Assembly (NCBI GenBank): GCA_026874595.1
Contig: CM049311.1
Coordinates: forward strand, 61,198,453-61,262,452
Direction: 5' to 3'
Origin: Sipunculus nudus
Lineage: Eukaryota > Annelida > Sipuncula > Golfingiida > Sipunculidae
Length of the DNA: 64,000 nucleotides
Shown one piece after another: positions 2,930 through 46,142 of the stretch. Numbering within the stretch: the stretch's first letter is position 1; each line of letters begins with the position of its first letter. The translations under genes were made by a program, and so were the position numbers. The notes under the pieces were generated by a model, which was given only the letters and a program-made list of their open reading frames with translations, had not been told where the DNA came from and did not search any database.

Positions 2930-4440
2930 CTGACTGTAAGTCTTTGTCCGTCGTCCGTCCGGCTATCCGGCCGTCTGTCCGTTAACAAAACACAAATCGT
3001 AAACGCTGGACCTGGAACCTTCTTACTTTACATCCAAAGAGGTCCATGAAAAAATCTCCTTAAAAACCTGGAATTAGGTCTCTGTTACCCATATTCTTCA
3101 AGCTTTGGGGCTCCGAAGTACCCCCCAGAATAATGAAAAATTTGATAAAAAAGCTCAAGTATCTGAATAACTAATGCATTGATCACCATGATCCATTGCA
3201 TTGATCAGTTTCTGCAGACTGGTGGCGCCACCTGTATTTTTTTTCATTTTTTAACGATTTTTTTCTCTATTTTTGAGACCTTAAAAGATGTGGTGATCTG
3301 TTTACAGGGCACAAATCGTAACCGCTTCTCACTTTACATCCAGAGAGGTCCATGAAAAGTCTCCTTGGAAACCTTAAATTAGGTCTCTGTTACCCATATT
3401 CTCCAAGGTATGGGGCTCCGAAGTACCCCCCCCCCCAGAAAAATGAAAAATTTGATACAAAAGCTCAAGTTCCTGAACAACTAATGCATAGATCACCATG
3501 ATTCTTTGCATTGAAATTGATCATGGGGGGTTACGTCAGTTTTTGCAGAATGGTGGCGCCATCTGTATTTTTTCGATTTTTTACGATTTTTCCTCTATTT
3601 TTGATACCTTTAAAGATGTGGTCATCTGTTAACAGGGCACAAATCGTAACTTCTGTCTCGACATGCAGGGAGGCCCATGAAAAGTCTCCTTGGAAACCTG
3701 GAATTAGGTCTCTGGTATCTATATTCTCCAAGCTATGGGGCTCCGAAGTACCCCCCATAATAATGAAAAATTTGACACAAAAGGCCAAGTATCTGAACAA
3801 CTAATGCATTGTTCACCATGATTCTTTGCATGGATATTCATCATGGAGTTTTTCATCAGTTTCTGTAGACCGGTGGTGCCACCTGTATTTTTTCGAATTT
3901 TTACTATTTCTTTATCTATTTTTAGACCTTAAAAGATGCGGTCATCTGTTAACAGGGCACAAATCGTAACCGCTTCTCACTTTACATCCAGAGAGGTACA
4001 TGAAAAGTCTCCATGGAAACCTGAAATTGGGTCTCTATTACCCATATTCTCTTAGCTATTGGGCTTATAAGCACCCTCCATCATAATTAAAATTTTGATA
4101 CCAAAGCAGGACACAAATCATAAACATTTGACCTGGAATCTTCTAACCTAAAATCCAGAGAGGTCTATGAAAATCTCCTTGGAAACCTGAAATTGGGTCA
4201 CAGTGAACTATATTCTCAGAGTTTTTTTGGTAGTTTGAGCGCCCGAGAAATAATGCAAAATACACACAAATTGCCAGATTCCTCCTGAAAGGCCGGTTGG
4301 TTTGTCATCAGATTTGTTGTGCTTATAGGTCTTGATGAACAATGATGCCACCTACATTATCTTAATTAGTTGTCTGTGCAAGGACATATTGTCAACATGT
4401 CAGTCGGCTGAGCGTCATGACCACGGGTCACTTGTTTTTA
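2930..4440 (+). repeat. Modular repeat family A, copy 1
   Basis: It starts with a ttttagctcagctga terminus and a GTCC-rich leader (2945-2985). About four tandem modules follow, spaced roughly 313-338 bp apart as judged from the acaaatcgta motifs near 2992, 3309, 3648 and 3959. Each module has a block ggtccatgaaaa, a block tggggctccgaagtaccccc, and a GGTGGCGCCACC palindrome or near variant (exact at 3221-3232). The end near 4395-4440 has cggctgagcgtcatgacc, roughly inverted relative to the start. Open frames at 3511-3804 on both strands arise from the module. No coding capacity is evident. I infer a non-autonomous mobile element. Confidence 0.75.
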
Positions 4441-6170
4441 CCTAAAAACACTCGATATATTATGCGCTACTCCAGGTCGATGAAATTCAAAGAGTAATAC
4501 TCGTGTCAGCCTATGTGGAAACGTTTCCAAGAAACAGATCCCAGGAGTATTTCTGGTACTCAATAATTCTGTACAATCAAAAGGTTGAAAATTCTTTTTC
4601 TCTGATCGTATCATTTGTGTGCTCTGTTCAGCGCTCGATGAGCTTGATAATTATTGTATCCCCAGACAAAGTCGGGATACTATGATTTCACGACGGTCCC
4701 GCCGCCGCCGCCGCCGAAAAACCTTGTGAGCGGGATAACTCAAAAAATATTTCACTGATCTTTTTCAGACTTTTCATTTGTATAGATATAGGGAACGAAG
4801 CCTATTTAAAATGGGGTCATGACCTATGCCATGAGCGTGACCTTGACCTTGATTAGGTCCATTTTTGCTGTAAATAACACAAATTCTTAAATATCTCAAG
4901 GAAGCTTGCATGGACTTGTCCAAAAATCAAGGTGACCGAAGATCTTGGATAGCCTTGTGATATACCGGAAACTGGTGGCGCCACCTATTATCCTTTTCTT
5001 GTTTTTACGCCTTTTAATACCCCCATAATTGCCACTTGACAGTACTGAAAGCATTATAAGTCAAAAACTATTGGACAGATTTCTTTCATATTATGCACAT
5101 GTAGAGAGATGGGTTATGGGATGAGGTCTATTTACATTTGCGCCATGACCTTTACCATGAGAGTGGCCTTGACCGTAATGTGTCCATATTTGGTGAAAAT
5201 CACACACCTCTTATGATATCTCCAGTGTTGATAGCCACATGGATTTTTAACGTGACTTATGTATGGCCCACCACTAAAGTAAGAACCCTATAGGTTCTAG
5301 GGTCATGAGGTCAAAGTTCAAGGTCACAGGACACATCTTTAAAAAGATTGTGGATGCATTTTCAGCCAAAAATTTCATCTCAGACCTTTCATCTTGCACA
5401 TATAGTTCATCTGCCAATAGAGGAAGACCCCTATCAATTTTGAAGTCAAAAGGTCAAAGGTGAAGGTCACAGGAGCCATCTGTCCAAAAATTAGTTTCTG
5501 GATGATAATTCCTGCTTTTATTGATGTATGGATTTCAAACTTGACTTGTATATGTCCCATTGGAAATGCAAGACCCGAATTGATTTTGGGGTCATGAGGT
5601 CAAGGTAAAGGTCACAGGACACATCTTTAAAAAGATGTGGATGCATTTTTAGCCAAACATTTCATCTCAGATCTTTCCTCTTGCACATATAGTTCACCTG
5701 CCAAAAGAGGAAGAACCCTATCAATTTTGAGGTATCAAGGTCAAAGGTGAAGGTCACAGGAGCCATCTGTCCAAAAATTAGTTTCTGGATGATAATTCCT
5801 GTTTTTATTGATGTATGGATTTCAAACTTGACTTGTATATGTCCAATTGGAAAAGCAAGACCCGAATTGATTTTGGGGCCATGAGGTCAAGGTAAAGGTC
5901 ACAAGACACATCTTTAAAAAGATATGGATGCATTTTCAGCCAAACATTTCATCTCAGATCTTTCATCTTGCACATATAGTTCACCTGCCAAGAGAGGAAG
6001 AACCCTATCAATTTTGAGGTCACAAGTTCAATGGTGAAGGTCACAGGAGCCATCTGTCCAAAAATTAGTTTCTGGATGTTAATTCCTGCTTTTATTGATG
6101 TATAGATTTAAAACTTGACTTGTATATGTCCCATTGGAAAAGCAAGACCCAATTTGATTTTGGGGTCATG

Positions 6171-6189
6171 AGGTCAAAGGTCAAGGTCA
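6171..6189 (+). promoter_or_regulatory. Candidate nuclear-receptor element (DR1 plus adjoining half-site)
   Basis: Three AGGTCA hexamers lie in a row: 6171-6176, 6178-6183 (one-base spacing, a perfect DR1) and 6184-6189. The last also gives TCAAGGTCA, the extended half-site bound by ERR/SF-1-type receptors. The same triple recurs at 6460-6478. Resemblance is exact, but binding in this organism is unproven and the site lies in a repeat. Confidence 0.4.
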
Positions 6190-6459
6190 CAGGACACATC
6201 TTTAAAAAGATTGTGGATGCATTTTCAGCCAAACATTTCATCTCAGACATTTCATCTTGCACATACAGTTCCCCTGCCAATAGAGGAAGACGCCTGTCGA
6301 TTGTGAGGTCACAAGGTCAAAGGTGAAGGTCCCAGGAGCCATCTGTCCAAAAATTAGTTTCTGGATGATAATTCCTGCTTTTATTGATGTATAGATTTCA
6401 AACTTGACTTATATATGTCCCATTGAAAAAGCATGACCCCAATTGATTTTGGGGTCATG

Positions 6460-6478
6460 AGGTCAAAGGTCAAGGTCA
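6460..6478 (+). promoter_or_regulatory. Second copy of the triple AGGTCA element
   Basis: AGGTCA at 6460-6465, 6467-6472 and 6473-6478, the same arrangement as at 6171-6189 one module earlier. Confidence 0.4.
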
Positions 6479-6586
6479 CAGGACCAACATCTTAAAAAAG
6501 AGTGTGGATTGATAGATGGAAGAAACAATAATTGCTTGCCAAGTGTCAGTATATGCTGCTAAAAATGGGGGCCTATTTTTAAAGGG

Positions 6587-6715
6587 TGGGGGGGGGGGGG
6601 GGGATGGGGGCGTACTATGTCTGGGGATACTCTGGCACCTGCGGTGCCAAGAAATGTCTAGTTTATTATTGTAGTTATTATTATTATTATTTATATTATT
6701 ATTATTATTCAATAT
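6587..6715. repeat. Poly-G run and TTA/ATT microsatellite
   Basis: A G run interrupted only slightly (about 6587-6602) lies inside the right end of repeat B. A degenerate ATT/TTA tract runs from about 6663 to 6712. The 112-codon minus-strand frame across it encodes Asn and Pro runs and is an artefact. Confidence 0.8.
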
Positions 6716-7239
6716 ATTAATCACCGTGGGATTATTGGCACAGTATATATATGATATATATGATAAAAGGATAATATTACAAGAGACCTTGGGAAAAGAT
6801 AAAGTTTTCAACATCCTCAGAGGGACTGGTAATGGTCATGCATCATCGGAAGAATTGTTTCATAGATTTATAGACCTCTTTCGCGCGCTCATTGTAATAT
6901 GACCTGACCTCATTGATATGCACTTGGTTTCCTGCTGAAGGCAAAACATTGCCCAGCACTGGTCACTCAAGTGGGTAGGACAATTGCTGCCTCCAAGCCT
7001 CCTATAGAATGTTCACAATCAAACTCAACTTTAGTTTACAAAGCACCTCATATGCCCAGCAATTAGAACCAGCAGGTGTATATGAGCAAATTGACCACAG
7101 ATGATGGTACAGTGCTGACTGATCAATATGCTATTGAGGGTTCTTTGTGGTCAGACAGTCCCAGATGCTGACCTGAGCTGGAGTACCCTGATATCTATGA
7201 AAACTTTGTCGATTGAGAGCACTGGCCTTTAATCAAGGT

Positions 7240-7312
7240 CTCAGATGAAGTCATACAAGGCCCTGCCCTCATACAATTACTTTGTTTGTGGTCATGTACA
7301 GAAGGTGCTGTA
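7240..7312 (+). pseudogene. Possible remnant of a SWIM/YqaJ-associated protein gene
   Basis: One + frame reads MKSYKALPSYNYFVCG, then HVQKVL. This resembles the segment preceding the SWIM-type zinc finger in a large family of invertebrate proteins often found in transposon-like contexts. Neighbouring sequence (about 7090-7380) shows in-frame stops, so this is at best a broken fragment. The match is from memory over about 20 residues and could be chance. Confidence 0.3.
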
Positions 7313-7379
7313 ATATGAGTATGGTAATTGCTGCTATCTAAGGGCAGATGTATACCTCCCAGCAGACATGGGGTAATAG

Positions 7380-7560
7380 TAATAGATAAAAGTAATAGGC
7401 AGTAATTCAATTACTTTTCATCAGTAATAGGCAATAATAGATAATAGGCAGTCCAAAAATGTGGAATAATAGTAATAGTAATAGTAATAGTAATAGTCAG
7501 ATGAGTAATAGACCAATAGCTATTACTTTAACTATTACCAGTCTGGGGTAATAAAGAGTT
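7380..7560. repeat. Degenerate TAATAG hexanucleotide array
   Basis: Many copies of agtaat/taatag, purest at about 7465-7497. A related array lies at 9125-9260, so the two may derive from one spread sequence or flank an older insertion. Confidence 0.75.
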
Positions 7561-9120: not shown

Positions 9121-9124
9121 AAAC

Positions 9125-10441: not shown

Positions 10442-10444
<3 letters not shown>

Positions 10445-16027: not shown

Positions 16028-18430
16028 TAGCACAGCTCACTATAAGTCATCTGAGCTATAGCGATCACTCTGTGTCCGTCGTCCGTCCAGGCGTCTGTCC
16101 GTTAACAAGGCACAAATCGTAACCACTGGACCTGGAATCATCTGAGTTTACATCCAGAGAGGTCCATGAAAAATCTCCTTGGAAAAACTGGAATTAGGTC
16201 TCTGTTACCCATATTCTGCAAACTATAGGGCTCCGAAGTACCCCCCCTGAATTATGAAAAATTTGATACAAAAGCGCAAATATCTGAATAACTAATGCGT
16301 TGATCACCATGATTATGTGCATAGATATTGATCATGGAATGTTTCATCAGTGTCTGCAGACTGCTGTATTTTTCGATTTTTTTACGATTTTTTTCTCTAT
16401 TTTTGAGACCTTAAAAGATGCCGTCTTCTGTTAACAGGGCACAAAACGTACCGCTGGACCTGGAATCTTCACACTATACGTCCTGAGAGGTCCATGAAAA
16501 GTCTTCTAGGAAACCTGGAATTAGGTCTCTGATACCCATATTCTGCAGGCTATGGGGATCTGAAGTACCCCCCCGAATAATTAAAAATTTGATACAAAAG
16601 CTCTCTTACCTGAACAACTAATGCATGGATCTCCATAATTCTTTGCATTGATATTGATCATGGAGTGTTTCATCAGTTTCTGCAGACTGGTGGTACCACC
16701 TGTATTTTTTCGATTTTTCTATGATTTTTTTTCTCTGTTTTGAGACCTTAAAAAATGCCGTCATCTTTTAACAGGGAACAAATCGTAAACACTGGACCTG
16801 GAATCTTCTAACTTAAAATCCAGGGTGGTCCATGAAAAGTCTCCTTGGAAACTTGAAATTAGGTCTCTAAGCTATGGGGCTCAGAAGTACCCCCCCCCCC
16901 CCCAGAATAATAGAAAATTTGATACAAAAGCTCAAGTATCTGAACAACTAATGCATTGGTCACCATGATAATGTGCATGGATATTGATCATGGAGGAAAC
17001 ACTCAGTTTCTGCAGACTGGTGGCACCACCTGCATTTTTATTTTTAGTTTTTACTATTTTTTAAATCTTTTTTTGAGACCTTAAAAGATGCGGTCATCTC
17101 TTAAGAGGGCACAAATCGTAACCACTAGACCTAGAATCTGCTTTCTTGACTTGATGGGAGGCCCATGAAGAGTCTCCTCAGAAACCTGAAATTAGGTCTC
17201 TGTCAGCCATATTGTCCGAGTTATGGGGCTCAGAAGTATCCCCGAGAATAACTAAAAATTTGATACAAAAGCTCTGTTATCCTAACAACTAGTGCATCGA
17301 ACAGCATTATTCTTTGCATGCATGTGCATCATGGAGTATTTTATCTGTTCCCGCAGACTGATGGGGCCACCTGGACTTCTTTGAATTTTTACGCATTTTT
17401 ATCTTTATATTTGAGACCTTCAAAGATGTGGAAGTCTGTTAACAGGGCACAAATCATAACTATTTGACCTGGAATCTTCCTTCTTGACATCCTTGTAGGT
17501 CCATTAAAAACTCCATGGAAACCTGAAATTAGGTCTCTGTTACCCATATCCTCCGAGCTATGGTACTTAGAAGTACCTCCCAGAATAACTAAAATTTTGA
17601 TACAAAAGCTCCAGTATCTGAACAACTATTGCATTGATCACCCTGATTCTTTGCATGCATATTCATCATGGAGTGTTTCATAAGTTCTTGCTGTTCAAAA
17701 ATTTTAACACATTTTTTCCCTTTATTTTTTAGACCTTCAGAGATGCAGTTGTCCTTTAAAAGGACACAAATTGTAACCATTGGTCCTAGAATCTTCAAAC
17801 TTAACATCCAGGGAGGTCTGTGAAAATATCCTTGGAGACTTGAAATTAGTCTCTGTTGCCAATGTTCTCTGAGCTATCGGGCTTATATATATATAAGCAC
17901 CCCCCCCCCCCCTCCCCCAACATAATTTAAAAATTTGATACCGAAGCAGGGAACAAATCATAAACATTGGACCTGGAATCTTCTAACCTAAAATCTAGGG
18001 AGGTCTATGAAAAGTTTCCTTGGAAACGTGAATTTAGGTCTCTGTTACCCAAATTTTCTGAGCTATGCGGCTTATAAGCACCCCTCAGAATAATTGAAAA
18101 TTTGATACCAATGTAGGGCACAAATTTTAACCTTTCGGCCCAAAATCTTCTAACTTGACATTCTGAGAGTTCCTCAAAAGTTCTCCCAAGAAACCTGAAA
18201 TTGGGTCACAGTGACCTATATTCTCATAGTTTTGAGGTATGTTTGAGCACCCTAGAAATAATGCAAAAAAAAAAAAAAAACAAAACAAAAAAAAAAACAC
18301 ACACACACAAATTGCTCATGAAAGGCTGGTTGGATTGTCATCAAATTTGTTGTGCTTATGGGTCTTGATGAACTTAAGCCAATGTGCATGAACAATGATT
18401 CTACCGTCATGACCCACAGGTCACTTGTTA
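16028..18430 (+). repeat. Modular repeat family A, long copy
   Basis: It opens with a degenerate agctca terminus and gtcatctgagctatagcgat, then a GTCC leader (16075-16105). About seven modules follow, each with acaaatcgta-type, ggtccatgaaaa and tatggggctcagaagtaccc blocks and a palindrome variant such as ggtggtaccacc (about 16690) or ggtggcaccacc (about 17021). A poly-C run (about 17904-17920) and an A-rich tract (about 18266-18300) interrupt it. It ends near gacccacaggtcacttg, like copy 1. Several 70-85-codon minus frames here are module-derived. Confidence 0.75.
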
Positions 18431-18590: not shown

Positions 18591-19615
18591 AGCCCTCAGC
18601 CCTTAGGCTGATGGGCTATTGTCGTCACCCAAGCTGTCCGTCCGTCCGTCCGTCCGGCGTCCGTTACTTTTACCTTGTGAGCGGGATATCTTGAAAAGGA
18701 TTCACCGTCAGAATTTTATTTCCTCGGTAAAGATGTATATTGACAAAATCTCGGTCAAGTTCGAAGATGGGTGACCTTGACCTATTTTTCTACATTTTAG
18801 AGCTGATTATAGAAAAACACTTAGATGCTTATTACTCAGGAACCATTTGTTGGATTTTCACAAAACTTACTATGATTATTGGGACTGATAGTCTGTACCT
18901 GCTTCACAAGTTTGGTGGCTCCACCTACAATTTCTGATTTTTAATGAATTTTTATCGGATTTTTCAACTTTGGGCTTGTGAGCGTATTATCTTTAAAAGG
19001 ATTCAACGTAGGAATTTTAATTTGTTCAGTGAAGATGTATATTGACAAATCTCGGTCAGGTTCTAAGATGGATGACCTTGACCTATTTTTCTACGTTTTA
19101 GAGCTGATTATAGAAAAAAAAATTAGAAGCTTATTTCTCAGGAACCATTGGGTGGATTTTCACAATACTTACTATGATCATAGGGACTGATGGTCTGTAA
19201 CTGCTGCACAAGTATGGGGGCGCCACCTGCAATTTCTGATTTTTAATGAATTTTGCTTGGTTTTTTCAACTTTGGCCTTGTGCGCGGGATATCTCTAAAA
19301 GGATTCACAATAGGAATTTTATTTCTTTGGTGAAGATGTATATCGACAAAATCTCGGTCAAGTTCGAAGATGGGTGACCTTGACCTACTTTTCAAGGTCA
19401 CATAGCTTATAATAGAATAAAACTTAGAAGCTTATTTTTCAGGAAGCATTTGGTGGATTGTTATGAATCATGGTACATACCTCTCCATTTTAAATTTATA
19501 ACTGAGACATGTACAGATATACATCCATGTGAGAACTGATATTTAGTACTTGTTACTGTTACCACCTCTAAACACTGTTCTTTTGGCTGAGGGCTTTTGT
19601 CAGCTTCTGCTGATA
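18591..19615. repeat. Modular repeat family C with hairpin ends
   Basis: The 5' end folds on itself: AGCCCTCAGCC (18591-18601) pairs with GGCTGATGGGCT (18606-18617). The 3' side has the exact inverse GGCTGAGGGCT (19585-19595) and a small tcagc/gctga hairpin beyond it. A (GTCC)n leader (18632-18655) is followed by three modules of about 300 bp, each with a gatatctt-type block, tgaccttgacctattttt, and a palindrome variant (ggtggctccacc at about 18910, gggggcgccacc at about 19216). The two similar + frames at 18740 and 18978 are two copies of the module. Confidence 0.75.
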
Positions 19616-20353: not shown

Positions 20354-20942
20354 TATCACGTAATATGAAGAATACATTGCAAATTAATTAAAGTTCAGCA
20401 ATATTCCTGTTTAAATACAAGGAATCTGTTTGCAAGTCTTAAGATTTATGTTAAAATGCAGCGTCATCTTCGGATGTATAAGCATTTGTTTAATTTTGTT
20501 AGACTAAGTGATTTTATGTCCCATGTAATTCTGAGATGATGAGTTCAGGTAACATAATCCAACAGACCTAGGTTTCTGTCTTGTGAACTATGTCATGATT
20601 ACCACCTGATGACCTGAAAAAGTGTCGCTTCAGTAACGTCTAATTGCACAGAGTAGCAGGTAATGGGAAGCTATGTCATAACTAAACCTTTAATGATAAT
20701 TGACTTGAAATCACGGTCTCCACACGTTTTTAGCCAGGTGAATTAAATTCAATATGAATGACCATATGTTTCATAAATATCTCTTGATTGTTTGTCACAT
20801 TAATTTAATTGCTGTGATTTTGAGTATTTCATTCGTTTTTCTTTTTCATTGCAGATACAGTTCCGGTTTTCTCAACAAGAATATAATTCATTAGGGAGAG
20901 TTCGGTTCAAGAATAAAAAAACAGGGGTGGCCCCCCTGTGTG

Positions 20943-22269
20943 ATGACAAAATCCGATCATTGGTCTCCTTGGGAGTTACACCTGATCCAAAATGCACCCG
21001 CAGCGTGCATGCACGTCGAGGTTTTGAGGCTGAGGACTTTCCTATCGTGGAAAAATTACGATGTGTTTCCCACAGTGCTCGCCCGTGCTGGATTCTTCTA
21101 CAAAAAAGAAGGGGACGAGGTCGAATGTTTCCACTGTAGAGGACAGATCGCTAGGTGGAAAAAGGGTGAAAATGTTCATGAGAAACACAAAGTATACTTC
21201 CCCCACTGTTTGTTTATCCAAGGTAAAGATAATAAAAATATTGCCCTCGTATTACCACCAGATATATCGCAAAAATCTATTCGTTTGTTTCTTAATGAGG
21301 TATACAGGAAGAGAAAGAAGGAAGAGACATCCATCGTATTCAAACCTGACGCAGAATACATGGATTCCGGGGATCTTTACGAGAAACAGAGAAGGTCACC
21401 AACGCCACTGTCAATGCCAATTAGCGAAACTCAGCCTCATGCTTCTGTTTCAACGTATTCAGCTGGTGTACAAAGGGATGATATCAACAGGTCGGAGAAC
21501 ATTGATTTGGCAGTTTACTCTGATAATGGCACCCCTCCCGCAGGACCCTTACAATGTGTCACGTGGAACATTCAACCCAGATCAGAATCTTCTAGCCATA
21601 GTCAAGGGTATGTGGAGCCACGAAGTGCTGAATCCACGGAACTTATTGCTCTGTCAATTTCTAATGGCGATGAAAATGAAGTTAATATTACAGACAGCCT
21701 TCTTCCATTTGTTACAGAATCCATCGTACAAGCACGCGAACCGACCACTTCGTTTTTAGAAACATTTATAGACGAAAGTATAACTGCACCGTCCGACCCA
21801 CGATTGATGTTTTATGAATTGAATCGCTTAGCTACTCTTCAAATATGGCCCAAGAGGACGATAATTGACCCCAGCCTCATGGCCGCTACAGGGTTCTACT
21901 ATGTAGGACCCGGCGATAAAGTAAGATGTGTGTTTTGCCACGGCGCTATGATGAACTGGGCACGCGGGGATGATCCACAGAGTGAGCATGTCCGGTATTT
22001 CGGGGACCGTTGCCCGTTTATAAAAGGAGAACACACTGAAAACATAGCAATTGAACGAAGGTCTGAAAGTTCAAGCAACAGCTCTTCATTGCCAAGTATT
22101 ATAGCTCAACAAAGTGGACGCCATTCTTATCAAACACTTCAACGTATTCGAGATGCCTCTACACCTGAGCTTGCAGAAGAAAACGACCGATATTTAACCT
22201 TTCCTGGATGGCCTGCCAACAAAAAACAGAAACCTATAGATCTGGCAAGGGCGGGGTTCTTTTTCACAG
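20943..22269 (+). CDS. IAP gene 1, coding exon 1 (BIR1, BIR2, first half of BIR3)
   Basis: A 1327-base coding stretch. The exon itself probably starts at 20855 after a tttttcattgcag acceptor, with a short 5' UTR. BIR1 reads LRLRTFLSW, then LARAGFFY and ECFHC. BIR2 reads [16 protein letters not shown]. It has one extra residue between the zinc-binding His and the last Cys (seven rather than six). A long Ser/Thr/Glu-rich linker of about 190 residues separates the two. The third BIR starts with LTFPGWP and is cut by the donor gtatgt after FFFT plus one base (phase 1). A cIAP-like gene would more often have shorter BIR spacing. The ATG context is weak, so a start in an upstream exon remains possible. 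Confidence 0.9.
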
Positions 22270-25200
22270 GTATGTTATTTCAATATATTGCAATGCATTT
22301 AAAAATATATATTCCTTGATCCTCTTTTCCAAATACTAGGCATTAATCAATAAGATAAAGTATTTCTGACATTTCTTGGTTGCACATAGTTCACTACAGT
22401 TTCATATGATTCAGATATAGAATGAGTATACAGGAATTTCCTCGATTTTTTTATGCTACGCAGTGTCCAAACGTTTACCGTTTAGAATGTTATTAATAGA
22501 GGATGGCTTATCGATCGAGAGAACTGATCAGTGATGTAACTTAATAATCAACTAAAAGGTAACCCTCGAATTGTGAAAAACAGAAATTCAGTCTCAATCC
22601 TCTACTGGGATGCACGTCTTATAAAATATATATGACGGGGACGTCTTCCTCATCATTTAAAATTGATGCCTTTAAAATAATGATGGACCAAAGTTGAATT
22701 TTGCTTTTATTACCCCAAGTGCCGTAAGAATCACTTTTGCGCTTTGGATTGGCAGAATTTCCACACGTAACTTAAAAAGGGACATCGACTTTTTTCAAAT
22801 TCCACACTTTAATGTTAAGCCTTAAAGTAAAAGGAAAAAGTTATAGTTTTTACTTTAACTCCTTTAAATTCAAGGGACTGGTGATTTTAAACTTTCGACG
22901 TTAATTAAATAATCTCGGCATTGACACACATCTGTTCGGCTAAAACTCGTAGAGAAGACCTGTTTTCACATATTTCTTTTTCCAATTCACTGTGATAATG
23001 TGTTCTCCTTTCCGGGTTTTTGACAAGTTATGCCTTGACAGGGGCAGAAAAGGATCACAAATAGACATGGATCCGTCTCAGTCAGGATGAATCGTCTACC
23101 CTTTATGTTAGAAGAATCTTAAAAAATGCTACCTTCATCTATATATTTTATTTCAATTTTCAACAAAAACCGACGCTTTATCCTATCGCCCTTGAAGAGA
23201 TTTGCCAAACTATCAAACTTGCTTGTTCAACAGTATTCGAGCCACAAGTATCTTTGATAGCTCGACCAAAGGAACCTGTGGTCAAACACGTGTCAACATG
23301 GGCCGTTTAAAAGATCGAAAGAAGTGGAGGTTCTTAAACCACATGTGAGCAACCTACTATACTTGAGGGCAGACCCGACGTCATTCCAGGCATCTATTTT
23401 AGTAGGAAGGGACAGAAAAAAATCTGGATATCAAGGGTACCAGAAGATATATAAAATAATGATCGATATACAAGTTAATGTAAAAGAATTTAAAGGGAAA
23501 AATATGATATTCGATTGTGGTATATATTGACTTAAGTAAGGCAAGCAGACTTCAAAGTAGGTGGAATAAGTATTTGGTGATGTAAGCATTCCAACAAATA
23601 TCAGCGGATTTCTTCAATCAAATACCTATGTTACGATGGATATCTACCTGTTGAGAAAATGTAGAACTATCTTACTGTAGGGATTGAACATTTATGTGTT
23701 AGAATATGTATAATATTTGGTGTTTTGTAAATATGTCTACCTATTGAAGGTGTTACAGACACTTTTCGAAAGAGTTAATTTTAACTAACTAAGACTCATT
23801 TCGAAGAGTTCGAAGGAACAAATGTCAAGGAGTCATATTTGAAGGAGATAGCTTTAACCAATCGACGATTACCGATAACCCAGGGGTTGAGGTCACTGAG
23901 CAAATGTATGGGAATATTTCAGATTCACCAGATATTGCCAGTGACCGAGCGCGTGCGTGGTAGGGACTCTGCAAAGCAAGGAGAAGACTTTCCGGTATGT
24001 CCAAAAGGATTCATCGTACCGCCTAGGCAAGCAGGGAAAACGTTCCAGTGAATGCTGTTTTCATATAAACTGTTACAAGCTTAAGTCTTTAACATAGGAT
24101 ACAAGTAACAATACTGTGGCGTCCAAATATTTTGGGACAACTTTCTTTATAGCATTCCATAGCGCAAGGTTTGGAACCCATCGTCGAAATTCTAGGACAA
24201 GGGTGCACCTCGTTTATCTTTATATCATGACAATTACCCTGTTTTATTTCCAAGGTATCTTTCTGTTTCTTCTGAAATGGTAAGCAGTCACCAACTTTTG
24301 AAAGAAGAGTGGCAATAGATTCAACTGGTGTAGGTTCTTTCATTTTCTGCCACCTCTCTTGCTTTTTTATTGCACAGAAGATATGGAATTAATTTCTTTC
24401 AACGTCAGTTTAATTATATATATCTTAGTTTACTGTTTGGTGTGGCCTTGTACGATCATTGACTTAATCAGAAACTGATTAAGAAAATGTACTAGTTTTT
24501 AACACAGACATGGCTTTTAATCTTACAAGCTTCAATATGTTTTCGTGAACTGAAACTTATTTTTACTGCATGAAGCAAATACTGTATGAATCTTTCTCTT
24601 ATTATGACAAATTTACCATCATTCATCTGAATAATACACGATATACTCAAGGCGTATCTTCAAGCCTACGATCTGTTTACACAGTTCAACACAATTATGA
24701 CAATCTGCATGATCGTTTTTGGAACCTAACCTGATCAACGGAAATCACGATTCGTAGTCTTTGTAGTGATATTCTGTCCTTTCCGAATGATTCAGTTCAT
24801 GGGAATTCAATTCCAGGAATGGGGTCATAGTAACAGGCCGGCTTCTGTGGCTCAAGAGAAGAGCGCAGGACTCAAAGCCGGAAGATCATGGGTTCGAATC
24901 TCAGCCGAGGCGGTGAGGTTTTTCACGGTCGGCCCCCACCCGGGGTGAGCGCTCTGCAGGCTTAATGTGTAGGCTGTGCCCCACAGCCGTGTATACACTC
25001 ACATATGAGTGCGTGTTTGGGGGGTTCCCTGGTGTTATGACCCAGCAATGGGGATGATTACACACCTAGGACCCGCAGGTGCGGTAGAAACCGGGCCTAG
25101 GTGACACCAGGATATAACATAAAAGGAAGCGAGTGCTACCGCCTTGTCAAGTAGTCCGAAACCGAAATGGAAACTCTGCAGATGTAATACTTTGGTGAGG

Positions 25201-28200
25201 AATTAGATAAGTCAGCATTTAAAAAAAGTGGAGGCGGTTACCTCCACCAAAAAAATTAAAAAAAAAGCCACTCTGACTGTTAAGATGTACATCACAAATC
25301 TCACTGGCTTCATATACGGTGATGATTATTATTGATCTCTCGTGTATTTAGCCGAAATGGTTCAAAGATAGCAGCGGTACTACCGCGATCGTTTATAAAT
25401 CCCGACAGCTGCATTGTTTAGACGTCTCAAATTTAAAATTAGAAAGCACTGTAACAGTCTACCAACATTTATGTTGAAAATAATTTAAGAATGTAGACAA
25501 AGGGCGTTGTGGGACCATCTGCCTATGTAGATGTATCTTCTGCAGGTCATCAGCTTTGCTCTCTAAAAGAGTCTAGGATAATAAAGATCAGTTCAGATAA
25601 GACATTTTACTAGTGGGACCCGGCAACGTCTCCAGCCTTAATGATATCTCCAACTACAAACATGAAATAATTATGTAGTGCTGCAGACCTTACGTCATAC
25701 TCGTTGAGTTTGGGTGACTCCCTTTGGTTGACAAATTCGAATTTCAGCTGCAGCTCCAAAGGAGAGATATTTGTCACTAGCTGGAATCACGGAATGGTCT
25801 ATAATACTTTCGTTCCAACTGATTCCAAGCTGACATGAATCAAACGCTTCTGTTATCCTGGCAAGCTGATGGCTGAATGGATCGTTGATGAAAACATTAC
25901 ATTAAGGCACATATACGTCATGTTGCGTGGAAACCAATCATGCCCGGTTTAAAAAAAAAGAGGAGTAGGGGGTAAATGGAAAACCAGCGGTAATAGTGTA
26001 GATTTTAGATGAACTAAATGAATAAATCAACAGTCGTTAGGACATCTGTTTAACACCTATACATGTGCAAACAATTCTTCAAGGAAGAAATCACATTCGA
26101 AAATGGCTATAGATATCCCTCCACTTCACCATCAATTTACAGTACCACGTATTGGCTAACCTTAGAAGTTTTAACATTAGCGAAACATATTGCAACTTAT
26201 TTTCTAAAAATCGGCGTACGATCACATTTCTATTTTTTCTATGCGATAGTGTGTCGTCGGCCGTCGGGTGTCGTCCTTGCGTTAACCCAAACCACCTCAG
26301 AAACGGCAGGAACTTGCATCACACATTTTTATGCATAAATCAGTCATCTGAAGAACTCTATCAGAATGGGCTTATTTCTTGGCTATCTGCATTGACTTTG
26401 ATTTTACAGGGGAAAAGCTAAAATCCTTTTAAAATCTTTTACTCTGGAACTCTCCAGCCAAATTGTTCAATATTTAAAAAAATTATCCCTGAAACAATTT
26501 CTCGCAAGTTTGTTCGAATTGTTCCAGTTCGATGATTTTTTAACAGGAAGCTGAACTTAGTAATTTGGCCAATTTAGCATACTAAAATCACAACTCAAAA
26601 GGCTGATCTATCATCACCAAATTTTTATAAATGTCGGTCACATGAGTCATATGTGGAATTAGGGTATTGGTGACGCCACCTGCATCGATTTTTTTTGTAC
26701 CTGGTCATCGGTCATCAGTGCATTCACCCATAATTACCCAGGAACAGGAGGAGCTAGCATCAAAAAATATTTTTTCTCAAAAATTAGTCACATGTCAAAT
26801 CAGATTGAGTTTTTTGTGGTACCACCTGAATCAACTAACATTTTAAGGGGAAAAAGCTAGAAAACCTTAAAAAAATCTTCTACTCAGAAATCATTTAGCC
26901 ACATTGTTCAATATTACACAGAAATGATCCAAAAGAAAAGCTGACTACAGTTTGTTCAAATGGTTTGGGTTCGATGACAAATGACTACGTTCAAATTCCT
27001 GTAACTCGGCCAAGTAAGCATGCTAACATAAAAGTGTCAGAAACGGCAGGAGCTAGCATCACCATGTTTTATGGAAATGTTGGTAACACGAATCATATTT
27101 GAAACTGAGGTTTTTGTGGCACCACCTGCATCGACCTGTTTCTTCGGGGATACACTCGTAATTTTAGCCTCTTTCATCTTCTGCATTCAAAGTTTGCTAT
27201 GATGAAACTGTCAAGCTGAATTATTTAATTACTGTGTTCCGCCTTCTCTGAGACCCTTGGACCGATCTTTCCGAAACCAGGCATAGTTATTCGCTCCCAT
27301 ATGTAGTTGTGCCTAACGAAGTCAGGGGCGCCACCTGCAGTCCTTTATGCGCAGCATGAATCTGGGTGTCTTTGTGATAACAGCCTGTACCTCAGGAGTG
27401 GTTCAATGTATATAGCTGAAATTTTGCATGTCTATAGATCTTGAATCTCTACATCTACTCAATACTGTTGGCGGCAACTGTAATCGTTTTTGCGTGGCGT
27501 CCATCCATACTTTGTGTGATAATTGCTCCCATCCTAGGAATGGTCCAATGTATTTGTCTGAAACGTGGCTTGTCAATCCATCTTGGATAGCTTTGTTGTA
27601 GACCAGACAGGTAGCGCCACATGCTGTTCCGATTTTATAGAATACATTGATGCACTTTTCCTCAATACGAATAGAGCGGGTTCATTGATTTTACGTTGAG
27701 TTATAGAAAGCTGAAGTTGGTCTTGTGGCCAAGCAAGCCTATATAAAAATGAGGGCTGCAATAGTCTTCTTCTGCAAAACTGTTGTTTCAAAATCTGTAA
27801 CATTTATTGTTAAAAATGATTTTTAAGTAGTCTTGTCTAAGATTACCTAAATGATTTTGGCTAAATTGTTGGGCCTTTTACACAATAAAGGAATGGAGAT
27901 ACTTTGGCACACTAAGCTAGTATAGTTATTGTAATAACAGACTGAGCTCTGTGGGTATATGAGCATAGTTGTACAGGCAACATTAATAATTAGTGTCCAT
28001 ATCCAGCCTGCAGGCCTTGTTTAATTTGATGGCCTTAAACTGTTGAACAGTTGTTTACGTCCTGGTCAATTTATCCTGATGGAGGAAATGGTAGTTCCCG
28101 GAAATCCTCGATAGACCACTCTGATGATCTGCAACTTCGTCAATGAATTTTCTGGTTTAAGTACAATTGCCAAAATGTTCCGGCTCACCAGGTCATGAAT

Positions 28201-34700: not shown

Positions 34701-37700
34701 TGGGAACCGTGACCTGATTTTAAATAGTGTCACTGGCAGTTCTCATCAAATGACCGTGGCCTAGCTTATAAAAAGTGTCACTCTCAGTTCTCGACAAATG
34801 AGTACCATGACCTAATGTATAATGGTTTTTCTCATCAAATGAGAACCGTGACCTGATTTATAATTGTGTTACTGGCAGTTCTCATCAAATGAATACTGTG
34901 ACCAAGTTTGTGATAATGTCAATGGTAGTGCTCGCCAAATGAGTACCTTTACCTAATTGTCCCCCGCTTCCTCGGAACGGGGGATATTAATTTGGGTTTG
35001 TCTGTCTGTCTGTCCGTTCGTCTGTCCGTCCGTTTGTCTGTCCGGCCGTAAAGTTTTCGTTTCCGTGCGATAACATTCCTGAATATTATCCGATTTCATT
35101 CACTGGTTTTGGTGACTTACTGCTCTCATGCATACCTCGGTCGGGGTTGATTTTGGAGTGTCTGTCTGAAAATTATTCTCCCCATCTTCAAAACAAACAA
35201 AAAATTTGTTCCTATTTAACAACCAAAAATTACGTCATGTGGAGGCACCTTCAGGGCACTATGAAAACTAAAACACAGCCCCTATGACATATGAAGACAT
35301 CTTCAGGCAACAATAAAAACTAAAACATTGATTAGGCTAGAATCAATGACAGCAAGAGGCGGAAGCGAAGAACAAATTCCGCGATTTTGGTTCTTTATAT
35401 CAGTGACAATGGCAGGCTCATCGAGTATCGTGGGCTATTTTATAATAGTGTCACTGACAGGTCTCATCGAGTAACGTGCCCTAGTTTATAAAAGTGTCAC
35501 TGGCAGTTTTTTTCCAAATGAGTACCTTGACCTAAAAAATAATAGTGTCACTGGTAGTTCTCTTCAAAAGAGTACTTTGGCCTTATTCATAATAGTCTCA
35601 CTGGTAGTTTTAATCAGTAGAGCACCGTGACCAGTCATGCTAGTGACACTGGTAATTTCCAATAAATGAGTGCCATGACATAATTTATTATGATGTCACT
35701 AATAGTTCTCATCAAATGAGTACCTTACCTAACACTTGTCCTGAAGAATAGTTGTTGGTTATCTTTGAAGTTTTCTCTATTTGTTTCCCAAAATGTTCCA
35801 TGGCTTTGCATTTGGTGATAAAAATTATATCTTTTATTTTTCTTTTGTGCCCCTGATTACTTTATATACTCTTTATGGCGATGTTTTTTCTGTCTATGGA
35901 AATTAATAAAGGTGATATAAGCAGGTGATCAGCGTCTCACACGGGGAGGACATTGAGTTGTTCTTGGAAGCATACCTAAATTAGTTTAGAGATATATATC
36001 TGTTTCATCACGATTTAACTCTTATGCTTAATTCTCGGTCTGTTTCGCTGTCCCTTTCCAGAAAGTCCCGCTTACTTCGACAGACGCCAAATTCCGGCAC
36101 AGATGGCTACACCAATGGTTCAAACGGCGTTGTCAATGGGATACCCACGTGATCGAGTCAGAGACCTTGTTGAGAATCGCCTCAGAACCACAGGTGAAGG
36201 CTACCCTAGTCTAACTGCTTTGGTGGAAGAACTCCTCGAGTCCGACGTACCCGACAACCAGAACCAAACCAGTGTTCCGCAAGCCAGGAGGGAATGTACG
36301 TCTCTGACAGTGGAGAGACAGACCTCAGAAACCACAAGGACTCAAAGTATGCCATCCACCTGGCCGGAGAATAGATCTCAGAGTATAGAAGAACGACCTA
36401 CTACCTCAAGCGCCGCAATAGGTGAGTGTCTTGTGATATTTCATTTCCCTTATCCTGGAATGAGGGTCTTGCGAACTTCCAATTGTAATTCTGTGGCACA
36501 TCGTTTTATATTTAATAAGCAATATTTGATTTTTTATGTTACATGTATAATAAATTACAAGAATGTCCATGGCCTCAAAAAGGCACACAGAAAACAAAAT
36601 AAGAAACCGACTACTGGATCTTAAAAAGGTGAAATTCCTTATCTCCGCAACAGGGTAGAAACTTTCATTAGAGTCTTAAGAAAGTAGAACTCGGTAATAT
36701 AATGACAACTTTCCTTTGATATATATGGGCTTTCCAACTGACATTGTTGGGTTCACTATAATTATTTTTATTAGTATTCTCTTTTGACTTACGCGCTGGC
36801 GCCGCTGCCTCCGTCCACCTTTTGTTACAAAATATCTCAACAGCCACTGCAACAGTCATCATGAAACTTTGCAGACTTTTTTTCATGTGATAAATATGCA
36901 TAAATAAGCTTTTGGTGGCGCAACCTATAGATGTTGACCTACTTTCTGTGGGCTGAATGATCTTTTCCTCTATTTCCGATATAAGTCATAAAGTGTAAAT
37001 ATTTTGGCTTCCATGTCATAGTCAGCAGTTCCTTAGAGGAAGGAGAATAAATTGAGTGTAACTTAAGTCAGATTATTTTCAAGTTGGCGGCGTGTTGTCG
37101 ATCGGAATTTTGACAATTTGACGTGTTTGCATACACGATGTCATGTGTATTATCAAATATCTTAGGAACTGCTGCACCCTTCAACACAACATTTTACAGC
37201 AATATTGATCATGTGACAGCTATTCAATAGTGACCTGCAGGTGGCGCCACCTATGTTGATTTCTCTCTGCAATTTGTAATGGTTTTTCTGTTTTTTTTCC
37301 CCCAAGATTTGTCATAAAGTATTCATATTTTGGCTTTCATATCAAAGTACACAAAAAGTTAGGGGACAAAATGGGTGTTAATTCAGTCAAAATAATATCA
37401 AGATGGCGTCTTGACAGAACTTCAGATTTTGTCTTCTTAGTAGTCTGTGTCCGATTTAGCATTTTATGTCATATTTTAAGTTCGATCACTCTGTAAGCTT
37501 GTGCAATAGCAGAGTATCCTCAACGAAATGCACGAATGGCATTTTTACATCACTTTTTTATTTCTTAATCACCCACCATCATGAACAGTAATTAACAGAG
37601 TGAACGTTTGACCCCTGGGTTTCTTGTTATAGTACCTTAGGCACAGTCATTACATATAGCGCAGATGTATTCATATCCATGACATTTTCCTTGGTTTTCA

Positions 37701-38690: not shown

Positions 38691-38694
38691 TTGC

Positions 38695-39480
38695 TTTTAG
38701 TCCCCGTCGTAAGGAATGAGGACCTCTAAAATGGCCCACGCCTGTCCGTCCGTCTGGCCCAATTCTTTTGCCAAATACCCCATCTGCTTTTAGTTCTGAC
38801 CGAATTTCACAGTCATACTCGGCACATGACTGACATATGATTATGTTCTGTAGGTGGCTCCATCCTGTATAGCGACTTTCTGCTTTAAACAATGGTCTTT
38901 TTTCACTTTTCTTTACATAAGTCAGTAAATAAGAACACTTTAGCCTTCAAATCATATGGAGAAAATAGGTAGGGAAATTCAATGAATACTATATTGAATA
39001 GAATTATTTTCAGACTGATGTTTCCACAGGACTAAACACATGACTCGCATGTAGTTAAACATGCCGCTTGCGTCACTTCTGTTTATCGATAAACCGCAGG
39101 TGGCGTCACCTCTGTTTGACGTTAAAACTGCACGTGGCGTCACCTCTGTTTAACGTTAAAACTGCAGGTGGCCTCACCTCTGTTTCACGTTAAATCTGCA
39201 GGTGGCGTCACCTCTGTTTAACGTTAAAACTGCAGGTGGAGTCATCTCTGTTCAACGTTAAAACTGTAGGTGGCGCCACCTCTGTTTAACGACTTTGTGC
39301 GGTCCAAAATGGTCTTTTCCACTTTCCTTCAGATAAGTCAGTACATGAGAAGACTTAAGCCTTAACATCATTTGGAAGGATTTCTTGGAGCTAAGGGAAT
39401 ACAATGAATACTACATTGAATAGAATTTCAGACTGATTTTTTCCAAAGGACTTGGAATTATGATGATTGTCTGATTTCAC
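38695..39480. repeat. Interspersed repeat (family F-like start) containing a minisatellite
   Basis: It starts tttagtccccgtcgtaag, has a short gtccgtccgtc leader (about 38747), and two diverged blocks with cttttctttacataagtcag / cactttccttcagataagtc on either side of the 34-bp minisatellite. Confidence 0.6.
39063..39290. repeat. 34-bp minisatellite built from two palindromes
   Basis: The cag/tag anchor recurs at 39097, 39131, 39165, 39199, 39233 and 39267, exactly 34 bp apart. Each unit holds GGTGGCGTCACC (exact palindrome GGTGGCGCCACC in the last, 39269-39280) and TTTAACGTTAAA, itself a palindrome. The first half-unit is diverged. Confidence 0.95.
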
Positions 39481-41141: not shown

Positions 41142-41145
41142 TGCT

Positions 41146-42900
41146 CATATTATCATGGGTTAATTGGCACAAACATGGAAAATACGGATCCAATCCAATT
41201 AAACACAAAGGGTACAATTGAACACTTCGGATAATGTGTACTTGTTCTGCATCCAAGTAAAAAGCCAATATGATCAAAGAATGATAACAACGGAGGCCTT
41301 AGCTCCATGCAGTCATGGTTGCTTGATATGGGTCACTTTTTAGCATACAAAATACAAAAAAATGGACAGTGTCTGAGAAAAAGTCAATGATAGTGGCTTA
41401 AATGGTCTATGAAACTGACATTTTGTAAACCAACGATATTTGAAGCTATATATAGGGTGCCAATGTTTTAAGAGAAAATACTACCACGTGTTTCTGTTAG
41501 AGTCTATTAAATTTGACAGATCAGAACATATACCCTTAAATGACACTTATTCCGATGTTACATATTATGGAAATATAAACTTTCAGTTAACAGTATGCTC
41601 TACACAGTGTAACAAATGCATACAAATATATACCCTACATATAATACTTGGATTTTAGCATACCGTATTCGTGAATGCATATTTTGTTTTGCTTATGTCA
41701 AACAAAGTACATTCATAACATATATACCAGAACAAGATACAGACAAAGGAGGCAATAATATGATGACCGCGATCTCCATCATAACCCATGGCCACTTACT
41801 TGAGGCTTTATATTACATATTCTATTTTCTATTGGTCTCGGTTCATTTTCTTACATATGCCATGCATGTATATTACAGGGGACCTATTCCAGTACATTTT
41901 CTGTGGAATATACCAACAACTGTCTCACCATTTTGTACAGTTTAACAATAGGTATCTGGCCCTATAAATGTATTTTAAAATAACATATGGCATATCATGT
42001 AATAGACCTTCACCACGAGCATGCGCACTGCACGTAACGGTCGTCTGCTCGGTTCGGGTCCTTTGATCTAGCATTGCGGGTTTTGTTCAATGAAAGTAGA
42101 AACATGCCACACACAGAAAGGAACCCCACCGCTCATGATAAGATCGGAATCTTTTACTTTTTTTTCATTTAATATATTTCAAAAGTCTCTTTGTTTTTTT
42201 AGTAAAATAACGGACCCGAATTATTCGTGTTAAATTTCCCCAACAGATGTCGTTGGTGTGGTGGAAAAGGTCTATTCGATCAATATTATAAATGAGTATA
42301 ATGTGACTTAAACGTACATTTTCATACTAGTAATGTATACGTAATTGCATATGTGAGCACATCATGTATCAGCATGTATAAAATAAAATATACATCTCAA
42401 TGAAGCTTATTGAATAAATATTATAACGAGTTGATAATATATTTCATGAATAACAAGGGCCCAGAGGCACAGATAGTCCCCCGCCCTATTCGTAACTGAA
42501 ATACTTATTATTTGTGACATGCTTTCCCTTTGGATTTGCTTAAATAGGATAATTCAGGATCCTAAGGTGTCTTGTGTAATGAATGCAACTAAACAAGAAG
42601 AGCAGGTTCACAAAATTTCGGAATAATCCATGATATAATTCATGAAACTTCTTAATGAGAATTGATTTGAACTAAGAAGGTCATCAAATAAGGCATTAAA
42701 ATACTGCAGTTATCACTCAAACAATTTTTTTCATAAAAAGGAATTAAATGATCAGTGGATGTGTTTTGTAATTCCTATCCATTGACATTCTCTATAGGGT
42801 GAAACTGTAGGACAGTGAGAAACAATCATAGGTAATGTAAGCAGCTCATATCTATGGACATGAAATATCATACACTGATGATAAGTACTGGTAATGGGGC
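41146..42900. other. No recognised feature
   Basis: Open frames at 41440-41658 and 41616-41945 show no recognised domain. A C/G run (about 42899-42921) ends the stretch. Confidence 0.4.
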
Positions 42901-42944
42901 CCCGGGGGGGGGGGGGGGGGCGGGCACCTTTTCTGGTTACAGAT

Positions 42945-44010
42945 TATCAGTGGCGCTACCTGTCTTATGTATGCGATAAAACTCCATGATGTACGGCTGT
43001 GCAGTTTCAGGCCAATACCTTACATCATAACTGAGATACGTGTAATTTTTACCTAATATAGATATGTAGATGCCAATAACTAAAAAAAAAAAGATTATAG
43101 ATGGCGCCACCCAGAGTTAAGTACATAATAAAGCTATCCAAAAGCTTACTATAGACACACATATTGCGCAAATCTGCTGAATGACTCCTGAAATATGGGC
43201 GATTTTTAGCTCAGCTGAATGAAAGTCATCTGAGCTATAGCGATCACTCTTTGTCCGTCGTCCGTCTGTCTCTCTGTTCGTTAGCAAGGCACAAATGGAA
43301 ACCCTGGACCTGTAAATTTATGATTGAAAATCCATTAATGTCCATGAAAAATCTCATTGGGAACTTGAAATTAGGTCACTGTGACCTACACTTCTGAGCT
43401 ATGAGACTTGAAGGTACCCCCAAGAATAATTAAAAATGTGATACAAAAGTCCAGCATCTGAATAACTAAAGCATTGATTGCCATGATTCTTTCCATGCAC
43501 ATTTATCATGGAGTGTTTCATCATTTCCTGAAGGCTGGTTGCGCCTCCTGTATTTAATTCTAATTTTCGCATTTGTTTTCTCTGTAATGAGACCGTCGGA
43601 TGAAGCAGTCCATCCGTTAATAGGGCACAAATCGTTACCGTTCGATCTAGAAAATTTTAACTGTACATCCAGGGAGGTCCGAGGCAAATCTCCTTGAAAA
43701 CCTGAAATCAGGTCATGATACCTATATTTTGTGAACCACAGGCTGAAAACATGATTTTGCCGATTACAAGTGGCACCATCTGTCTTATGAACGCGATAAA
43801 TCCATTCACGATCTATGCTGTGCAAAAAAATTTGGCCGATAGCTTACAACATTCCTGAGATAAGTTTCACCTTAAATAGACGCATAGATGGCTATAATGG
43901 AAAAATAATTATAGATAGTGGTACCAGGGTTCAGTACTTGATAAAGCTATCCAAGAGGTTTACACAGTAATAAACATGGAGGAAATATGTTGAACCACTC
44001 TTGAGATACG
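42945..44010. repeat. Nested repeats: family A copy between two copies of another unit
   Basis: A unit with gtggcgctacctgtcttatg, gctgtgca and aagctatccaa lies at 42949-43190 and again at about 43768-43980 (gtggcaccatctgtcttatg and so on). Between them is a short family A copy (43205-43765) with its ttttagctcagctga end, GTCC leader (43253-43285) and two modules. Either A inserted into a tandem pair, or both belong to one composite. Confidence 0.65.
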
Positions 44011-44345
44011 GATGATAGAAGCAAAAATGACCTATTCATGGTCAGTCCAATAGAAAAATAATCATGTCTCCAATTTAAAAAGGCTTCGTCCTCTGTCATA
44101 TATCTATGCGCACGAAAAAATTGATAAAGATCAGTCAACAACTTCTTGAGTTATCTGGCACACAAGATTTGTCTGCGGCGACGCGACCGTATCAAAACCA
44201 TAGTATCCTCAACTACTCGGTCTGGAGCTACAATAAACCATTCACATGCATTTTATTTCTGTTAAAATGCACATTTAAGTCACATGCATATATTTCTCTT
44301 GCTCCATGATAGATGTGACCAAGGTTTATGAAAGATATAGTCTGT

Positions 44346-44444
44346 GGCGTCAATTTTTTTTAAGGGTGGGGGGGGGGGATGACTTTGTCTATATATACAC
44401 ACACACACATATACAACTTTTCAGCGTCTCTAAGTTACATATTC

Positions 44445-44487
<43 letters not shown>

Positions 44488-44654
44488 AATTCTAAGCAAG
44501 GTTTAGATATAACTTTTTTAATGGATCCAGTATTTAATTCTATTTATTAATATATTTCATTTGCAATAGTATAATATTGTTCTCTGAAAAGTTGGGGGAT
44601 GATAACATTGACCATCCCCCACTTGCCATCCCCCCCTATATTGACGCCCCTGGA
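44346..44654. mobile_element. Short inverted-repeat element (MITE-like)
   Basis: The left end GGCGTCAAT then a G-rich run and GGATGAC (44347-44385) mirrors the right end, where CATCCCCCCC and ATTGACGCC occur (about 44626-44648). About 300 bp with no coding capacity. A CA tract (about 44398-44409) and a TA tract (44447-44484) lie inside. Target duplication was not resolved. Confidence 0.6.
44447..44484. repeat. (TA)n microsatellite
   Basis: About 18 TA units inside the inverted-repeat element. Confidence 0.95.
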
Positions 44655-44659
44655 TATAG

Positions 44660-46142
44660 GTGACATTTCCAGACTACTTCAGTAATAACTAGAAAATAAT
44701 CTTTTACCTCACAGAGAGGGCACGACCACAGGTGGTGCCATCTGCTGGTGAAATATCAAAAACAAAATTCAATATAAAGCATTAAAACAAAATAAGTCAG
44801 GGTAAGGAAACACCAATAAAACTATAAAATTTATAATTTTTATTAGTTTGTGCCTTTTTTACATATTTCAAAAAAGTATCTGTAGATATTAGATATGATA
44901 CCAATATATGTCAGTGTTTGTCTCATTATTTAAATAATGACACTCTGACAGACAGAAATGTGATAATTCTTAAAATGATACAACTGCACGTCCATATGTG
45001 ATATCTAAACATGGATGGATTTAATTGTTGGCATGATATATAGCCCTGATGTATCAATCGATGCAAGAGGACAGGTATGATTATCCATATGCTTTGACAT
45101 GACTCGATTATTGATTATTGGTATGATTATCCGTTGCCCTGAGAAGAATCGAAATACCGTATTTCCTTTATAAGACACTGGGCCTTGAAGAGTCGCCTGC
45201 CTTATTTAGTGGCCGGGACAAAACTGTGTCTCAGAAAAATAAACGTAGGCCTTAAATAGACGACGGCCTTGTTCAGCGGCTGAGTTTCAGAGTACATTTC
45301 ATGTTTGCCCCCAGATGTCTGTTCCCCTCGCTATAATGTGTGCATTTACGGGTCAAATTGACAGGAGACTGTTGTATGAATTTCGGTTTGTGTGTGTGTT
45401 GATAATATATTTAATTCCTCAGTCAATCTTTTCTTATGGGCATGACTATTTTATTCATAAGTGACATTTGCCCATTCTGATTTGTCCATTCTGATTGAAT
45501 TCGATCACCGTTTCTAGTAAATTTTATACAATTACAATGTCAGCAATGAGAAAGCCGACACCAATACCAATGCGCGCCCCTTGCTTCCATTTTAAAGCGC
45601 TGTCTTTTAAGTGCGTCCCATCTGTTACCAAAACTACGCTTCAGAGTTTTCAATAAGAGTTATATATGGTATTTACACTGTCGACGACCAATACATTCGT
45701 TTGATATCACTGCCCGGAAGGAATGGACTTTCCAGGTTCTTTTAAACGGTAGACTAGAACTGCAAGAACTCACACATACACTCAAGATGATGAGAGATAT
45801 GTGTGTAGCAAAAACAATAAAAGTATAATAAAATCAAACTTACAATTTTTTGAAGAGGCTTTCAAAAGACAAGGTAAAATGATCCTTAGAATCTACAAAA
45901 AAATCAAAAGGACAAAATTCCTGATTAATTCTGACACTCGCCGTAACCACAGATAACACAAAAAGTTCGCCAGGCAACCCGGCCGCTAGTCACATGATCA
46001 TCGTGCACGTGACTTAGGAATGTACTCCTCGAGTCCAAGCGGTTTATCACTGTATACACACGCACTAGTGCTTCTCGCTTTTAAACAATACACTGGCTTG
46101 ACACAATCCCAGACTCCTTAAGTACTCGCTTCTCTATTCATT
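44660..46142. other. No recognised gene
   Basis: Near 45163 a segment taccgtatttcctttataag followed by repeated ggccttgaa/ggccttaaat text resembles the ends of a widespread invertebrate short repeat, but I cannot bound it. The rest shows nothing recognised. Confidence 0.35.

Follow-up and report, generated by a model that had tools for sequence, protein, structure and literature searches.

A conserved directional site with a putative CTCF core in the tandem modules of Helentron-type elements of Sipunculus nudus

Mobile elements can multiply the sites of host proteins, as occurred with the CTCF sites spread by short interspersed elements such as mouse B2, a line of work cited in PMC13317027, and with the ISX of Drosophila miranda, spread by a Helitron. 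Non-autonomous Helentron elements (HINEs), including the Cg_HINE of oysters and the pearl-type bivalve elements CvA and DTC84, are described as composed of a left subterminal inverted repeat (subTIR) with its inverted repeat, a GTCC/GTCY microsatellite, central satellite-like tandem repeats and a right subTIR with a palindrome, lying at T-rich insertion sites (PMC7492417 for Cg_HINE, PMC4067079 for HINEs generally). The BIV160/Cg170/HindIII superfamily of bivalve satellites has widely diverged monomers of ~160 bp with two conserved motifs, found within Helitron-type elements (PMC5139131). Here we analyze the 12-bp word GGTGGCGCCACC, which recurs along a stretch of 64,000 nucleotides of the sipunculid Sipunculus nudus (the window) and is carried by the tandem modules of elements with the same list of parts as the HINEs. 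As in mouse B2 and ISX, a host architectural or regulatory site would be multiplied here by a mobile element; unlike them, the carrier is a Helentron, the site lies in tandem monomers, its exact copies number at least 111,757, and its match to the CTCF motif is confined to the 3' two-thirds. In the parts of the HINE reports used for this comparison (PMC7492417, PMC4067079), the monomers are not said to hold a CTCF-like site that is directional and conserved; such a site is present here. Judged from its published description, the likeness of the BIV160/Cg170 satellites makes their homology to these modules plausible.

Counts were made over 1.43 Gb (153 contigs), with the reversed word, equal in composition and likewise palindromic around a central CpG, as control. 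The exact word was found 111,757 times against 14 for the control, and 218,229 times against 575 when one mismatch was allowed, an extreme enrichment. An earlier note on the window, made from its letters, had reported exact copies at 3221, 4974, 37240 and 39269, and all four were found there; every variant that it listed was also recovered, some displaced by 1-4 bases (17019 for 17021, 18914 for 18910 and 42949 for 42953). Copies missing from it (17360, 27115, 27610, 38853, 39099-39201 and 43537) bring the window's total to 26 at up to two mismatches, of which 4 are exact and 22 near. With 4 exact copies per 64 kb against about one per 12.8 kb in the genome, the window is average in density and in no way special. 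Neighbouring genomic copies, among the matches listed, are often 128-131, 147-150 or 335-337 bp apart, and these recurrent spacings place the copies in tandem modules. The copy number of the modules carries the genome-wide count, and an excess of the word beyond it was not borne out. An Rfam search of the window gave no match, and our literature search did not find the word described in such a repeat setting; a guide RNA for mouse alpha-globin HS+44 includes AGTGGCGCCACCT, which we record just as a lead.

Module families were gathered by the words of their flanks and not by the motif, from sampled loci almost all on one contig (C1): F1 (~330 bp), F2 (~278 bp, with two sites) and F3 (~302 bp). 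The seed families had initially been picked for the presence of the motif, which biases towards its retention, and flank sequence then served to select the copies in these families and near them. Single-linkage clustering of flanks joined nearly all of them in a single group, and we did not rely on it alone as evidence. F1, F2 and F3, together with the window copies at 4974, 36914, 37240, 27610 and 43100, align over a weak common text composed of the site, CATGCAAAATTTCA at about +51 and TCCTGAGATATGAG at about +84. A profile built from this text with the site left out recognized 436 module copies at E <=0.01, 344 of them at E <1e-4, and in 87% of these 344 the site (up to two mismatches) is found no more than 8 bases from where it is expected. 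That a flank-only profile finds the word at one fixed place shows that the families descend from one module. Hence, the contexts that the earlier note took for different repeats with unshared flanks are diverged members of one module; they align as a single ancient unit from which the site was inherited, not reused, and the independent acquisition of the word by unrelated families was rejected.

The same note held that the motif is retained better than the sequence around it, and proposed that common descent with decay at the neighbours' rate would speak against this; the outcome depends on the level of comparison. Within families the motif shows no extra conservation and decays as its flanks do, with values of 0.905 against 0.884 for the rest in F1, 0.922 against 0.936 in F3, and 0.891 and 0.935 for the two sites of F2 against 0.890; the central CpG ranks among the least conserved motif columns of these alignments, a decay that would suggest its methylation in the germ line. 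Between families the site is the most conserved block of the module: over 33 flank-defined clusters its mean pairwise identity is 0.76, compared with 0.47 outside it; the two next best blocks reach 0.64 and 0.63. One ancestor is thus confirmed, and between families the decay is not at the rate of the neighbours. This combination argues for selection acting on the transposing master copies: the site would be inherited, would decay neutrally in dead copies and would be held in the lineages that still transpose.

The modules make up the tandem core of HINE elements, an architecture that was established for F1. The left boundary of F1 arrays is sharp and consists of a T-run, present in nearly all copies, followed by AGCTCAGCTGACT, a short loop RTA, AGTCATCTGAGCT and the GTCC/GTCY microsatellite; at the right boundary stand AGTCGGCTGAGC, the palindrome TGACCCATGGGTCA and CTTGTT, beyond which the sequence is unrelated. 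A 5' subTIR with its complementary inverted repeat is therefore present, and so is, at the 3' end, a second subTIR that complements the first, with a terminal palindrome, as listed for Cg_HINE (PMC7492417) and for HINEs at large (PMC4067079). Within three mismatches, 40,564 left ends and 13,877 right ends were counted genome-wide, with none for the reversed controls of either; the threefold excess of left ends may mean several types of right end or frequent 3' truncation. In the sampled loci eight left-right pairs enclose 1.0-2.0 kb and 1-4 sites each, two of the eight being one element seen in overlapping loci. F2 loci contain a related type of left end, and a complete pair for F2 or F3 was not isolated in the sampled loci. 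The genome also has 143 matches to Helitron_like_N, corresponding to Helitron-type Rep genes; PF14214 loci with an open frame include C11:50385293, C4:36174940 and C8:80139053. Some left ends lie in T-runs just behind an F1 site (L012 at ~1123-1172, L035 at ~1999-2049 and L074 at ~2600-2661), as if the elements inserted into one another's modules.

Oriented by their modules, the copies chosen by flanks give the profile YAGGTGGCRCCACC, in which Y (95%) and A (96%) are followed by GGTGGC, G (0.71) or A (0.23), CCACC and then A (0.65) or T (0.31). The two arms change unequally, with 150 changes in the 5' arm and 235 in the 3' arm, and mirror-compensated double changes, which the earlier note had suggested looking for, number 6 against 14 expected. 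An A stands next to at least one arm in 110,575 of the 111,757 exact copies (98.9%), and on both sides in only 41,727. Given the directional profile and the A beside one arm, a one-way YAGGTGGC(G/A)CC describes the functional unit better than a palindrome does. The E-box arms of the earlier note are not the rule and this interpretation was rejected, T (0.46) being about as common as C (0.49) before the A. Of its two functional suggestions, a nicking site and a binding site, the latter is the better one: the directional profile and the conservation between families suggest a putative protein-binding site.

Comparison with the CTCF motif indicates a candidate for the binder. The site correlates with positions 8-19 of the vertebrate CTCF matrix (MA0139.1, in a reconstructed form) with r=0.83, a value reached by 0 of 5000 permutations, and no column-permuted matrix of 200 scored the module families as well as the CTCF matrix. 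These positions (YAGRKGGCRSYR) are common to the canonical motif and the module site, including the C/T tolerance at position 8 and G/A at 16, and the CTCF core YAGRKGGCRSY is matched. The genome encodes one clear CTCF ortholog, whose 11 fingers lie in a single exon and which shares 56% identity with the human protein and matches PDB 7w1m chain H with an E of 6e-109. At helix positions -1, 2, 3 and 6 its zinc fingers (ZF) 3 (TGER), 4 (ESKR) and 5 (DYKR) retain 12 of 12 base-contact residues of the human protein; ZF6 differs (QGTM to QNSA), and ZF7 retains its Arg and Asp. The next two zinc-finger hits, C7 and C17, proved to be ordinary zinc-finger arrays and were discarded as CTCF paralogs. 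In published structures ZF3 and ZF4 are placed on the core CpG, ZF4 also takes CpA/TpG, and ZF7 reads the 5' cytosine (PMC12264921, PMC6222495). Conservation in the modules covers the bases that lie under ZF3-ZF5, together with the YA that ZF6 would face, and the commonest variant of the site, CpG to CpA, is a form that ZF4 accepts (PMC12264921). The canonical CTCF consensus CCASYAGRKGGCRS itself occurs 5,310 times in the genome against 76 for its reversed control, a 70-fold enrichment; some of these matches are in close pairs.

We propose that the 12-mer would be the core of a directional protein site with the consensus T-R-Y-A-GGTGGC(G/A)CCACC, borne by each unit of an ancient tandem module that forms the middle of HINE elements and has been spread genome-wide by them. 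That a protein binds it directionally, whichever protein this may be, is likely. The most likely binder would be the host CTCF, acting mainly through ZF3-ZF5, an identification to which we give about an even chance. The element may gain by recruiting a host factor that opens chromatin, phases nucleosomes, supports transcription or insulates the element from silencing. We offer only tentatively the complete proposal, in which the monomers of a rolling-circle transposon family carry a conserved directional CTCF-core site and have seeded more than 100,000 such sites, pointing the same way within an array and possibly serving as loop anchors or insulators. Several points weigh against this explanation of the site by CTCF. 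The 5' CCA of the canonical motif (positions 4-6, read by ZF7) is missing from the modules and a conserved T replaces A at position 6; positions 4-7 disagree with the matrix (r=-0.29), and the fit is strong in one part of the motif and absent in the other. Typical exact copies reach p ~7e-5, far below canonical CTCF sites; the matrix used is a reconstruction of MA0139.1; and the CpA variant may merely reflect the decay of CpG. Moreover, families and flank bases are statistically non-independent as they share one ancestor, and the cluster counts overstate independence.

Some of these points would fit the directional site of another host protein, for instance a C2H2 zinc-finger protein with a CTCF-like core. 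The 5' part, unlike that of CTCF and with its own conserved T at -4, and the hundreds of C2H2 arrays in the genome agree with this alternative, which we hold to be unlikely, given the column-by-column agreement with CTCF across 12 positions. The site could also serve the machinery of the element itself (Helentron Rep, helicase or endonuclease), or be an internal promoter needed for transposition or tandem amplification. In favour of this, the site is conserved in transposing lineages only, and the genome has Helitron-type Rep genes whose open frames are long; against it, the known transposition signals of HINEs are at the ends, where they also occur here, the site recurs within the element, as often as every ~130-150 bp, and its likeness to the motif of a host factor would be a coincidence. 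We regard this as improbable.

An old word without function, carried by copy number and kept by chance or homogenisation, would be consistent with the module number that accounts for the count and with the neutral decay within families. Neutral drift would not be expected to leave the site as the most conserved block between flank-defined clusters, a test weakened by the relatedness of the families, or to produce position-specific tolerance at -2 (C/T) and +7 (G/A), and a lack of function seems to us rather improbable too. Finally, action through symmetry, as a hairpin, cruciform, nicking or recombination site, is suggested by the perfect 12-bp palindrome and by the 12-bp palindrome that marks satellite breakpoints in the clam satellite phBglII400 (PMC5139131). 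It is largely refuted and very improbable: besides the inequality of the arms and the deficit of compensated changes, the dodecamer is mostly bordered by A...A, two bases unable to pair, single-strand folding of the site is no better than that of shuffled sequences (z -1.0 and -0.3, against -4.65 for the strongly folding hairpin at the end of the element), and the uncompensated variant GGTGGCGTCACC was amplified in a minisatellite.

Within the window, a complete HINE-type element with both ends recognised occupies 2918-4436 of the plus strand. Its left end comprises a T-run and AGCTCAGCTGACT at 2918-2935 and the GTCC/GTCY microsatellite at ~2945-2980, the inverted repeat behind the left subTIR being deleted; its right end comprises AGTCGGCTGAGC at 4402-4413, the palindrome TGACCACGGGTCA and CTTGTT. 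The three F1 modules in it carry minus-strand sites at 3221-3232 (exact, reading CAGGTGGCGCCACC on that strand), 3552-3563 (CAGATGGCGCCACC) and 3872-3883 (CAGGTGGCACCACC), the latter two with one mismatch. A lone diverged module has an exact minus-strand site, TAGGTGGCGCCACC, at 4974-4985 (flank profile E 8.9e-10). Another HINE left end, subTIR and inverted repeat, at 16029-16057 (plus) precedes an F1 array whose sites at 16689, 17019 and 17360 have 1-2 mismatches (16689-17371, minus); its modules at 16353 and 17700 have no recognisable site. An F3 array spans 18914-19227 on the minus strand, with one mismatch in each of its sites, 18914 and 19216. Four diverged copies, at 26669, 27115, 27324 and 27610 (1-2 mismatches), lie in 26669-27621, of which 27324 and 27610 are confirmed as modules by their flanks. 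Diverged modules on the minus strand bear a one-mismatch site at 36914-36925 (E 3e-9) and an exact one, again TAGGTGGCGCCACC, at 37240-37251 (E 1.6e-11).

A 34-bp minisatellite at 39070-39291 (6.6 units) holds the site or a variant in each unit, including the exact copy at 39269-39280; it amplifies the site plus 22 bp, and GGTGGCGTCACC is common in it. On the plus strand, a module at 43100-43111 has the one-mismatch site TAGATGGCGCCACC (E 4e-6), and a HINE left-end hairpin at 43208-43236 is followed by a GTCC microsatellite and an F1 module, the site of which, at 43537, has two mismatches. The minus-strand site at 44731-44742, CCAGCAGATGGCAC, lies outside any recognised module and is a full match to the canonical consensus CCASYAGRKGGCRS. 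A degenerate copy with one mismatch at 54302-54313 (minus) gave no match in the flank-profile search.

Other tandem modules of the window, at 5300-6509 and 18666-19459, contain nuclear-receptor-like half-sites (GGTCAAAGGTCAAGGTCA; TGACCTTGACCT). The best conserved flank 12-mer of F3 is GACCTTGACCTA (0.991), and a second site of host-factor type may therefore ride in these repeats. Stretches coding for BIR domains (IAP) and a BIRC2/3-like UBA, at 20895-22319 and 36019-36624, form an inhibitor-of-apoptosis locus; the BIR/BIRC2/3-type gene family is reported to be expanded in bivalves (PMC7831173). At 50421-50598 a 39-bp repeat (4.6 copies, 97% alike) lies in a minus-strand open frame and encodes the 13-residue repeat PAFIKRFTLCISL.

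How CTCF acts outside vertebrates, and whether motif orientation has a role there, is treated as an open question (PMC13317027, PMC10658182). If CTCF binds the modules, one repeat family would offer many near-identical, oriented and countable test sites on every chromosome, and rolling-circle elements would be seen to spread a genome-folding signal. Even with another binder, a conserved site in each repeat would suggest a reason why HINE elements retain their tandem satellite-like repeats.

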